From Halobacterium salinarum DSM 3754 (GTDB lineage Archaea > Halobacteriota > Halobacteria > Halobacteriales > Halobacteriaceae), in assembly GCF_008124605.1 (NCBI RefSeq), contig NZ_VRYN01000001.1:794772-858771 (forward strand): a stretch of DNA of 64,000 nucleotides. The letters run 5' to 3'. The translations under genes and the position numbers were made by a program. The notes beneath the pieces are model-generated. The model made no database searches. It was not told the DNA's origin and saw only the letters and a program-made list of their open reading frames with translations. Of this stretch, positions 47,217-51,297 are shown piece after piece. How positions within the stretch are numbered: position 1 is the first letter of the stretch; every line of letters begins with the position of its first letter.

Positions 47217-47335
47217 GGCGTTCGCACACGCACTCCGCCGGCCCCGGGTGTGCGGTTGGCGGCCGCTCCGAGCGCGCTCTGGCGTTCTTTCATCGTGTTG
47301 CTAAGCTTTATGAACGAACCGTGCACACACAATTC
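47217..47335 (+). promoter_or_regulatory. Promoter region upstream of the CHAT gene
   Basis: GCTTTATG (47305-47312) lies about 28 bases before an ATG at 47336, a typical leaderless arrangement. The sequence from 47290 onward is clearly richer in A+T than its neighbours. No palindrome is visible. Confidence 0.5.
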
Positions 47336-47524
47336 ATGAGAATGGTCGGGGGTTTGTTATACACGCGCCGCCAGCCCGCCGGCTTCGGCTCCGGGATGCT
47401 TGCGGCCGCCGGTGCCTTGGATCGGTGTGGACTGCACGCACTCCCCCTGCGTCACCGCGTCGCCGAGTCGCTGCGACCGCCCCACAGGTGTGCCGCCACA
47501 CCCAACTGGGGGTGGACGGTGTAA
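47336..47524 (+). CDS. Small leader ORF before the CHAT gene (62 aa)
   Basis: The frame starts at an ATG placed at leaderless distance from a TATA element and ends with TAA two bases before a GTG that can begin the CHAT protein. The product is basic and Arg/Pro-rich, starting MRMVGGLLYTRRQPAG. It may be a small gene translationally coupled to the CHAT gene, or a chance frame inside its leader. Confidence 0.4.
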   Translation: MRMVGGLLYTRRQPAGFGSGMLAAAGALDRCGLHALPLRHRVAESLRPPHRCAATPNWGWTV

Positions 47525-47526
47525 CC

Positions 47527-49668
47527 GTGCCAGCGGCCAGTTGCCTCGAGATGATCGTTCCGCTGTCCGACGGCCACACCGGCCTGGCGCTGAACGACAA
47601 CATCTACAACCGACGCGTCGTCATGCGCACGCCGACCCGGGTCGCGCCGACGCCGACGGATCCGTCCACGTTCCTCTTTCCCGTCGAGGAAGCCGCGCGC
47701 GTCCACACCGACCGGCTCACTACCGCCAAGCCGAGCATGGTGTTCATCCGCGATGACGCCACGGGCGACCCCCTCGACGCCCTCACTGAACCCCAGTCGG
47801 TCACCGTCTCACACGACGACCCACGCCTCCTGGAGTTCCAAACGCCGGTCCGGACGTACGTCCGAGTGCCCGGCGGGACGACTACCACGGTGACGATGAC
47901 ACTCGACGACGTCACGGTCAGCTTCCCGGACGCACACGACCTCCAGATCGGCGTCCGGAGCCAGCACTCCCACCCGATCGGCGAGATCACAACCACCACC
48001 GACCCGGTGGACGTGATGGCGGCAGTCGAACAGTTCGGCGCGGCCCTCCAGACGCCGTCGCCAGAGCGGTCGTGGCCGACGCTTCGGGGCCACCCGCCCC
48101 GACTGACCGTCGGCCAGCCCGACTCGACCGCCCACAGCCTGTCCCGCCCGGACGTGGACGTGACTGTCGGCGTGCCGCCGGAGATCGGTGCCGTGTACGC
48201 GGTCACGCCGCTCGCGTTCTATCTGGGGGCCCGCGTCGAACCGTCGTCGACGCCGTCCGTGACCGCCGGCGGGCACCAGATCGCGACGTTCCCGCGGGAC
48301 ACGCTCGGCCGGGCCGCCGGGGCCCTCCTCAAGCACGTGTTCACGCTGGACTGCGTGGTTCGGTCCGTCGGGCTCTACGACCTGGACACGCCCGCCCGAG
48401 ACACGCTCACGGCCGCCTTCGACTGGACGCGGGACGACCTGCAGCGGCTCTATGACATGCCCCTGGCCGCTCGCCTGCAAGCGTACACCGAGTACCCCCA
48501 GGAGACGGTGCTCGCGGCGGCACCCCGGTGGCGCCATACGGTCATGGTCGCTGACGACCCTCGCCCCATCGAGCATCTGTCCTTCCTCGCGAACGACCTG
48601 GCGGTCGTCCGCACGCTTCCCGACGCCACGCCGGACTCAGCGCCCGCGCTCTCGGCGGCCGTCGACGAGTTCATGCGCTCCACGACCGACACCGCATCGG
48701 ACACCCGCGGCCACGGTGTGGTCCCCGACGAGTTCGTCGCGGTGCCCGAGACGGACACCATGGAGACGTCGTACATCGGCCCGGGGGTTCCAGTCGGCGA
48801 CACGAAGCTGATCGCCGACGCCTACGACGCCCGGTTCAGCCACTCTTCGACCGACTCCGTCTCGGTCAACGTGGTGTGCAACGAGGACGACATGTGGGAC
48901 GAATACAGCGAGTTCTCGCTGTACGGGAACCGCGACGGCCTCGAATTCGACGTTTCGGTTACGCGCAACGCTACCCGGGCGGAGCTCGCCGACGTGCTCA
49001 CGTCAATGGGTGACACCGATTTCTTTCACTACATCGGTCACGTCCGGGACGGCACCCAGTTCGTGTGCACGGACGGCGCGCTCTCGTTCGATCAGATCGC
49101 CGCCACGACGACGCCGCCACGCGTGTTCCTGTTGAACGGGTGTTCGTCGTACGAACTCGGCCGTGCGTTCATCGACGCGGGGTCCCAGGCGGGGATCATC
49201 ACAGTGCGCCCGATCGGCAACGACGCGGCGATGCTCATCGGCCAGAACATCGCCCGGTTCGTCAACCAGGGGTTTTCGCCCCGGTCCGCGCTCGCGATCG
49301 TCCAGCGGTACGGGCGTGCCGACGATAAGTACATGGTTCTCGGTGATGGGGGCTATCAGGTTGCACAGAGCAAGAGCGGCATCCCAGTGGTTGCTCACTT
49401 GACTACGGCCTCCTCAGACAGCTCTCAGCGGTATCGGTTCTCCGTTGAAATGTTCCCCTCAGAGCACGACAGCCTTGGGGGTATCTACAGCCCGAACTTC
49501 GATGCACTCTCTCAACAGCTCTACGCCGGCTGTACTCCTACCGTTACAGCGGCTGCACAGGAAGTGCAGTCGTTTCTCGATCTAGATAGTCAGATGCCGG
49601 TTGTACTGGATGGGTCCCTCCATTGGGCCCCTCCACTCGAGGTCTCTCCGTGCTCTACGGACCCTTAA
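47527..49668 (+). CDS. CHAT-type caspase-like protein (haloarchaeal family)
   Basis: The product is 713 residues from the GTG at 47527, or 705 from ATG 47551. A frame 34 codons longer is open but looks non-native. The C-terminal third carries the CHAT peptidase pattern: FFHYIGH with His505, then RVFLLNGCSSYELG with Cys539 after a hydrophobic strand. NVVCNEDDM (start of the fold) and a late IGQNIARFVNQGFSPRSALAI are also typical. The N-terminal part (about 1-400) is beta-rich and contains LRGHPPRL. No signal peptide is seen. CHAT domains are cysteine proteases, often in immunity or programmed death. The last about 100 residues use notably more A/T-ending codons. Confidence 0.78.
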   Translation: MPAASCLEMIVPLSDGHTGLALNDNIYNRRVVMRTPTRVAPTPTDPSTFLFPVEEAARVHTDRLTTAKPSMVFIRDDATGDPLDALTEPQSVTVSHDDPRLLEFQTPVRTYVRVPGGTTTTVTMTLDDVTVSFPDAHDLQIGVRSQHSHPIGEITTTTDPVDVMAAVEQFGAALQTPSPERSWPTLRGHPPRLTVGQPDSTAHSLSRPDVDVTVGVPPEIGAVYAVTPLAFYLGARVEPSSTPSVTAGGHQIATFPRDTLGRAAGALLKHVFTLDCVVRSVGLYDLDTPARDTLTAAFDWTRDDLQRLYDMPLAARLQAYTEYPQETVLAAAPRWRHTVMVADDPRPIEHLSFLANDLAVVRTLPDATPDSAPALSAAVDEFMRSTTDTASDTRGHGVVPDEFVAVPETDTMETSYIGPGVPVGDTKLIADAYDARFSHSSTDSVSVNVVCNEDDMWDEYSEFSLYGNRDGLEFDVSVTRNATRAELADVLTSMGDTDFFHYIGHVRDGTQFVCTDGALSFDQIAATTTPPRVFLLNGCSSYELGRAFIDAGSQAGIITVRPIGNDAAMLIGQNIARFVNQGFSPRSALAIVQRYGRADDKYMVLGDGGYQVAQSKSGIPVVAHLTTASSDSSQRYRFSVEMFPSEHDSLGGIYSPNFDALSQQLYAGCTPTVTAAAQEVQSFLDLDSQMPVVLDGSLHWAPPLEVSPCSTDP

Positions 49669-50134: not shown

Positions 50135-50596
50135 CTACGACGTGGTGAACGTGAAGTGATCGCGGTGGCCGTTGGTGTCGACGACGATCCGGGTCTCCGT
50201 GTTCGGTGCCAGATCAACAGTCACCTCCACGCGCAGCAGCGTGCCCGGCCGCCAGGTGTCAGCGTTCGCGCTCACGACCGTCGTACTCGCGGGTGTTTGA
50301 TACTCCCCATCGACGAGCACAGTGATGTCTCTGGGGTCGCTCAGGGGCGTGCTGTCCCCCGTGTTCTTCACGAGGATCGTGAGCGTATCCGTGGTGTCGT
50401 TGTAGACGCTGTTCGGCGCACCCGGATCGCTGACGACGCTGAACGCGGTGTTGGCGTGTGCGGCGTCGGTGTCGGCGGCGTCGTTGACGCTGTCGCCGAT
50501 GATGGTGGCACTGTCCGTGAGCGCACCGGCGAGCGCGGCCGAGAACAGGATCGCGGCGATAAACAACACGAGGTGGGCCGAGGAGACGGAGGCCAT
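50135..50596 (-). CDS. Archaellum FlaF/FlaG-like (ArlF/ArlG) protein, orphan
   Basis: The 153-residue protein begins MASVSSAHLVLFIAAILFSAALAGALT, a pilin-like N-terminal helix of the type in archaellum stator proteins FlaF/FlaG. It is followed by a beta-sandwich with SVYNDTTDTLTILVKNTGDS and DITVLVDGEYQT, the hallmarks of the FlaF/FlaG domain. No other archaellum gene is nearby. It could be a paralogue acting in another pilus-like structure. ATG 50596 is taken because the family starts M-A-S-V-S. Confidence 0.82.
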   Translation of the reverse strand: MASVSSAHLVLFIAAILFSAALAGALTDSATIIGDSVNDAADTDAAHANTAFSVVSDPGAPNSVYNDTTDTLTILVKNTGDSTPLSDPRDITVLVDGEYQTPASTTVVSANADTWRPGTLLRVEVTVDLAPNTETRIVVDTNGHRDHFTFTTS

Positions 50597-50722
50597 CAGT
50601 CGCTCACCCCTGTTGCCGCGGGTCGTGCCATCGTTGTTGTTCTGCAACCCGATCGGCTTGAATGTTCGTTCGCGCGCGACATCGCACGCCCAGCGTCACG
50701 CTAATGCATACTGTTTGACAAG

Positions 50723-50754: not shown

Positions 50755-51297
50755 ATGACTGGCATGGGAGGGGAATGCAGACCACGGGAGGCAGACGCTG
50801 TGATCGTGACCGAACCGGATGTCACTGCAGTCGACGCGGACCCACGCACGGCTTCGACGGCCGTCGGTGTGACCTACGCCTTCGACGCCGAGACCTGGAT
50901 TCGCCGGTGGGGCGCGAACAAGGACCGCGTCGCCGCAGTGACCGCCGGCAGTGGGGACGTGCGCACCGCGACCGCGCGCTCCTCGCCCGCAGCGCACACG
51001 GACGCCGCCCCGATTCAGCTTCCGGCCACGCCGCCGAACGGCTGCGACATGGCCACGGTTGGCGTCATCGTCCACGCGTATCTGGGTGCGTGGGAAACAC
51101 ACGACCCCACGGTGTATCTCGACGGACTCGAACGCAGCGTGGCTGTGACCGACCCTGAAGCGGTGTTCCGATTCCTCCACGCGCTCGTGGCCCGGGCGCG
51201 AGCCGTCGACGGCCGGCTCGTCGCCTCCATCGCGGCGCACGATCTGCCCGCGGACACGGTCAAGACGCTCCTCCCACTGTTCGACGAACGCGTGTGA
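50755..51297 (+). CDS. Haloarchaeal protein of DUF7504-like/signal-output type, unknown
   Basis: The 180-residue soluble protein has a Rossmann-like alternation: GVTYAFDAETWIRRWGANK early, MATVGVIVHAYLGAWETHDP and VYLDGLERSVAVTDPEAVFRFLHAL later, then RLVASIAAHDLPADTVKTL. The VYLDG segment resembles the Walker-B strand of RecA-like domains, but no Walker A is present. It resembles short haloarchaeal proteins often encoded near signalling genes (DUF7504-like, from memory). An ATG three codons in is an alternative start. The dCTP-deaminase-family gene converges directly with no gap. Confidence 0.65.
   Translation: MTGMGGECRPREADAVIVTEPDVTAVDADPRTASTAVGVTYAFDAETWIRRWGANKDRVAAVTAGSGDVRTATARSSPAAHTDAAPIQLPATPPNGCDMATVGVIVHAYLGAWETHDPTVYLDGLERSVAVTDPEAVFRFLHALVARARAVDGRLVASIAAHDLPADTVKTLLPLFDERV

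Follow-up and report, generated by a model that had tools for sequence, protein, structure and literature searches.

A CHAT-family caspase-like protein with a conserved His/Cys dyad is widespread in haloarchaea and may be controlled by a DUF7504 partner

The analyzed window, i.e., the whole 64,000-nucleotide stretch of Halobacterium salinarum DSM 3754 DNA, carries a gene for a CHAT-family caspase-like protein. The large reading frame and the 62-residue frame ahead of it were both present as described in the initial annotation, and the locus comprises the following features:

47307..47312 (+), TATA-like element TTTATG, starting 29 nt before ATG 47336 (read from the sequence)
47336..47524 (+), leader ORF of 62 codons, ATG 47336 to TAA 47522-47524, most likely 5' untranslated region
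47527..49668 (+), CHAT-family caspase-like protein, 713 aa if started at GTG 47527, 705 aa if at ATG 47551
47551..48618 (+), N-terminal region (residues 1-356, ATG numbering), conserved, beta-rich and then alpha/beta (AlphaFold2 model, PDB fold search)
48856..49350 (+), CHAT/caspase-like catalytic core, approximately residues 436-600 from ATG (model secondary structure, Pfam CHAT, Foldseek)
49039..49041 (+), predicted catalytic His505 (H497 from ATG), CAC codon, motif HYIGH, invariant in 32/32 relatives
49141..49143 (+), predicted catalytic Cys539 (C531 from ATG), TGT codon, motif LNGCSSY, invariant in 32/32 relatives
50755..51297 (+), DUF7504 protein, diverged and without its C-terminal end (E = 1.4e-14), 1.1 kb downstream of the CHAT gene

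The designations His505 and Cys539 count from GTG 47527. The start codon of the large protein may be either GTG 47527 or ATG 47551: the closest relative has retained both, and the aligned relatives usually start near the position of ATG 47551. An in-frame extension upstream to GTG 47425 (747 aa) was ruled out by its codon score of -0.38.

The leader ORF had been proposed to couple or restrain translation of the large protein. If so, it would encode a translated regulatory peptide, and termination two bases before GTG 47527 (the gap being CC) would couple translation of the protease to it. The TTTATG element, starting 29 nt before the leader ATG, lies at leaderless distance, which favors such a peptide, as does the closest relative, where a different ORF of 22 codons likewise stops two bases before the same GTG. 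However, the leader ORF lacks a coding signal: its codon score of -0.13 per codon is below that of every 62-codon stretch of seven trusted window genes and is surpassed by 20% of wrong-frame stretches. With 3% acidic and 13% basic residues, its composition is unlike that of haloarchaeal proteins. An open frame of 62 codons is ordinary in this high-GC DNA, where 81 ORFs with a length of 50 aa or more were counted over the surrounding 11 kb. No family matched the leader peptide in profile searches, and no similar peptide was present in the closest relative (64% identical), whose upstream region is mostly unalignable to the leader region of the window. Only the block T(A/G)ACCGTG is well conserved there, and since it is conserved, the stop position common to both leaders is explained without a peptide. 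Thus, translational coupling through the leader ORF appears most unlikely, and the region is probably an untranslated leader in which the context of the start codon is conserved.

The identity of the large protein was analyzed by profile, conservation and structure. The window copy scored 12.7 bits with the Pfam CHAT profile (PF12770), i.e., below the curated cut-off of 24, while a paralogue in the same genome scored 27-28 bits and thus above it. In an alignment of 32 relatives drawn from other haloarchaeal genomes, Pfam CHAT matched 10 members at E <= 1 (best E = 3e-6, on residues 474-591), and peptidase C14 (p20) was absent from the Pfam matches of all 32 members. Searches of the PDB by sequence, with either the protein or the family profile, returned nothing meaningful, and NCBIfam holds no model for the haloarchaeal CHAT family. 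Foldseek comparison of the AlphaFold2 model (pLDDT 81, pTM 0.82) with the PDB yielded 16 matches with E values up to 1e-3, which all belong to clan CD (SAVED-CHAT, TPR-CHAT/Csx29, separase and caspases including caspase-1); among viral structures, named viral caspases ranked high. Thus, the CHAT/caspase-like fold postulated in the initial annotation was supported by the structure search, every PDB match at this threshold being a CHAT protein, a separase or a caspase. The proposed His505/Cys539 pair likewise held, being kept in all 32 relatives within the motifs HYIGH and LN(A/G)C.SY, and G496, N529, S533 and G537 near the dyad are also kept in active-branch relatives. In the model, H497 and C531 come after the consecutive core strands 491-495 and 525-529. 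The caspase-like fold and the active-site reading of this predicted protease are regarded as secure.

The best Foldseek match was the filament-forming, defense-associated SAVED-CHAT protease (PDB 8tl0; E = 2.4e-8), which has the CHAT domain in common with the haloarchaeal protein. The latter, in contrast, has no SAVED match, its N-terminal module is unrelated to known folds in the model-based search, and its family has a core rather than an accessory distribution. The CHAT fold is also shared with TPR-CHAT/Csx29 of type III-E CRISPR systems (7zoq, 7y85 and 8eey; E = 1.7e-4 to 8.4e-4). Csx29 is a partner-regulated protease, and the haloarchaeal protein would resemble it in its proposed control by a partner, although the candidate partner is a DUF7504 protein and not a CRISPR effector, and the modeled N-terminal region is beta-rich and then alpha/beta rather than TPR. 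Separase (5fby, 5fc2 and 5u1t; E = 2e-4) has the caspase-like catalytic domain in common, whereas sequence homology to it was undetectable and no pseudo-protease domain was identified in the haloarchaeal protein. Archaeal meta- and orthocaspases of peptidase family C14 (p20) belong to the same clan and also possess a His/Cys dyad, but the haloarchaeal CHAT family is without a C14 Pfam match, is near-universal in haloarchaea and includes a pseudo-protease clade; a p20-based survey had reported only 93 archaeal sequences and no archaeal pseudo-variants (PMC6426788).

The N-terminal region, which the initial annotation regarded as a candidate sensor, is conserved and was modeled as well folded, with a pLDDT of 84.5. 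A known sensor fold was not matched in the PDB fold search, and TPR proteins were not returned either. Weak likeness to the beta-sandwich of GH31 glycosidases (TM about 0.2) was taken as chance.

Members of the family were found in 365 of the 391 sampled Halobacteria genomes, representing 78 of 86 genera. Genomes often carry two to three copies, three being present in the genome of the window, and each of the 15 Haloferax genomes searched contains exactly one. The statement in the initial annotation that there is a haloarchaeal family of this shape without described function was thus supported, since the family occurs across haloarchaea and no paper describing it was found in the open-access literature. 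In several genomes, additional copies are located on plasmids and are mostly annotated as 'hypothetical protein', once as 'CHAT domain-containing protein' and once as 'caspase family protein'. Outside the haloarchaea, one family of the same phylum also contains relatives, in four genomes (G398, G407, G416 and G425; L134-L137), and in one of these relatives, L134, the dyad is lost.

Loss of the dyad was assessed across the family. Of the 125 frames analyzed from 121 loci, 110 have both His and Cys, and the 15 exceptions are divergent paralogues, 13 of which form a single clade with a support of 1.0; the other two losses are independent. In the paralogues of this clade the N-terminal region is conserved, the CHAT domain is degenerate and both His and Cys are gone. 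An active copy is also present in those genomes with dead copies that were checked, and DUF7504 was not found next to any dead copy. Paralogues of this degenerate kind are located at L139 and L141-L151 (e.g., L142:5899-8001 (-) and L144:5668-10634 (+)), and L144 and L146 each contain two of them in tandem.

A gene for a DUF7504 protein (PF24336) is a recurrent neighbor of the CHAT gene. Of 80 named loci with 10-kb flanks, 44 have it upstream in the same orientation at a distance of at most 250 bp, but since these loci were chosen as the best matches to the window copy, they are not an unbiased sample. The arrangement occurs under 14 of 35 taxon labels. All flanks together contain only 10 other DUF7504 matches, six of which follow the CHAT gene on its own strand at a distance of 250-1000 bp. 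In a second, less similarity-biased set of active copies from other genomes, DUF7504 was directly upstream in 4 of 24, which is still far above chance because there are five DUF7504 genes per 2.4 Mb. The adjacency clusters on the tree, with 10 changes compared to 31 or more in shuffles. HalOD1 is often fused to the DUF7504 partner, and the gene order CHAT - DUF7504 - receiver-like was read from the sequences of three loci. Natronococcus and Haladaptatus loci have a divergently oriented DUF7344 gene upstream. The order HalOD1 - CHAT - HalOD1 - DUF7504 was observed in Haladaptatus litoreus (L103:9535-13771), and in Halobacterium sp. TGN-42-S1, the source of the closest relative, a HalOD1 gene (L042:12282-12710 (-)) is convergent with the CHAT gene. 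A link to cell shape through matches of DUF7504 partners to the 'DdfA disk-determining factor' was dismissed, as only the HalOD1 domain had matched (67-position model).

DUF7504 itself may derive from a KaiC/ArlH-like protein, which the profile comparisons make suggestive only: hhalign gave a probability of 25% for DUF7504 against a KaiC-like family, a PDB HMM search returned ArlH/KaiC at E values of 0.6-1, and one DUF7504 copy of the own genome also matches PF06745 at 2.4e-4. An own-genome DUF7504 copy (L123, C2:167066-167593) has a near-intact P-loop, GPAMSGKR, which hints at a KaiC/ArlH-like ATPase origin. None of the open-access papers retrieved on HalOD1 or DUF7504 names DUF7504. The DUF7504 gene of the window could be the partner of the CHAT gene, but could equally belong with the neighboring archaellin-fold gene. 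The latter (PF01917, E = 5e-32; 50135-50647 (-)) encodes a possibly FlaG-like protein and points away from the DUF7504 gene (50755-51297).

Taken as a whole, homology, fold, dyad conservation, distribution, neighborhood and dead paralogues form the computed basis for the reading that we consider reasonably probable, namely that the protein is a signal-controlled CHAT endopeptidase of a core haloarchaeal family, acting in host stress or housekeeping control. We infer its protease activity, its regulation by DUF7504 and its physiological role as follows. The protein would be an intracellular CHAT-type cysteine endopeptidase using the His/Cys dyad, in which an N-terminal module of about 350 residues would be connected by a flexible linker to the caspase-like catalytic domain. 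It would be kept inactive until a signaling partner switches it on. The typical switch may be the DUF7504 protein encoded just upstream, probably a degenerate RecA fold of the KaiC/ArlH type, which often carries a HalOD1 signaling-output domain or adjoins a receiver-domain gene. Once active, the protease would make specific cuts in host proteins and thereby serve stress or housekeeping control, in the style of separase or Csx29 and not by bulk degradation. Several points count against this reading. In the window, DUF7504 is neither adjacent nor complete, and among the active copies of the second sample it is directly upstream in only the 4 of 24 mentioned above. Moreover, the N-terminal region, as modeled, matches no known sensor fold, and the likeness of DUF7504 to KaiC suggested by profile comparison is weak.

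In bacteria, CHAT proteases that are partnered with gasdermin, SAVED or CRISPR components are proposed effectors of cell death or arrest. Accordingly, an involvement in programmed death or phage defense had been hinted at for the window protein: as an effector acting in regulated cell death or against viruses, it would respond to infection or damage by cleaving targets, and thereby kill or arrest the cell. The closest solved relatives, SAVED-CHAT and Csx29, do come from defense systems, and the extra copies on plasmids fit such a role. The genomic data did not point in this direction, however. Since it is near-universal, with 365/391 genomes and 15/15 in Haloferax, the family is regarded as a core and not an accessory defense gene, and the patchy, mobile, island-like distribution of defense systems was not seen. 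No PADLOC defense family matched above chance (the sole match was JetD, for one member, at E = 0.03), and there were no relatives in the viral contigs scanned. The window gene sits among housekeeping genes; trkH is upstream of both of the two closest copies, and the Haloferax gene lies near genes for TrmB and a universal stress protein, among others. A function in death or defense is therefore considered unlikely. That the protein is a catalytically silent scaffold or signaling protein, keeping the CHAT fold for binding only, is conceivable in principle because a separate clade lost the dyad and the fold can thus be kept without catalysis; yet His and Cys, together with G496, N529, S533 and G537, are strictly kept in the window copy and all active-branch relatives, which makes this reading highly improbable.

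More than 90% of the sampled haloarchaeal genomes carry this family, with a full His/Cys dyad and a recurrent operon partner, and it thus offers a concrete gene candidate for caspase-like activity that was measured in haloarchaea without assignment to a protein. Clear homologues of caspases were described as missing from archaea, and extracts of Haloferax volcanii nevertheless showed a high, basal, zVAD-FMK-sensitive caspase-like activity (LEVD/VEID/IETD-cleaving), to which no gene was assigned (PMC3615174). The activity comes from the same organism group, and an intracellular caspase-like cysteine protease would be expected to cause it. The CHAT protein, as a caspase-fold candidate present in single copy in all Haloferax genomes searched, might be this enzyme, i.e., a constitutive stress-linked protease. 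However, cleavage after Asp is not obligatory for CHAT proteases. Caspases have Gln two residues before the catalytic Cys, where the haloarchaeal CHAT alignment has an invariant Asn. Furthermore, H. volcanii is outside the named loci, Pfam CHAT gave no match in the H. volcanii control genome, and the authors also raised the proteasome, which has caspase-like sites, as a source of the activity (PMC3615174). The identification is accordingly judged improbable. It also seems doubtful, at a similarly low level, that a lineage-wide, endogenous caspase-like proteolytic signaling system, made up of core CHAT proteases, a degenerate RecA/KaiC-like DUF7504 regulator with HalOD1 or receiver domains and a pseudo-protease clade, explains archaeal caspase-like activity. 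Since exactly one copy is present per Haloferax genome searched and the genus is tractable, a single deletion can test both the role in core physiology and the link to the activity. In this genus, the single CHAT gene is followed, about 1.1 kb downstream, by the gene of the TrmB sugar regulator (PF11495; L061:13106-14200 (-)), which is conserved in Haloferax species.
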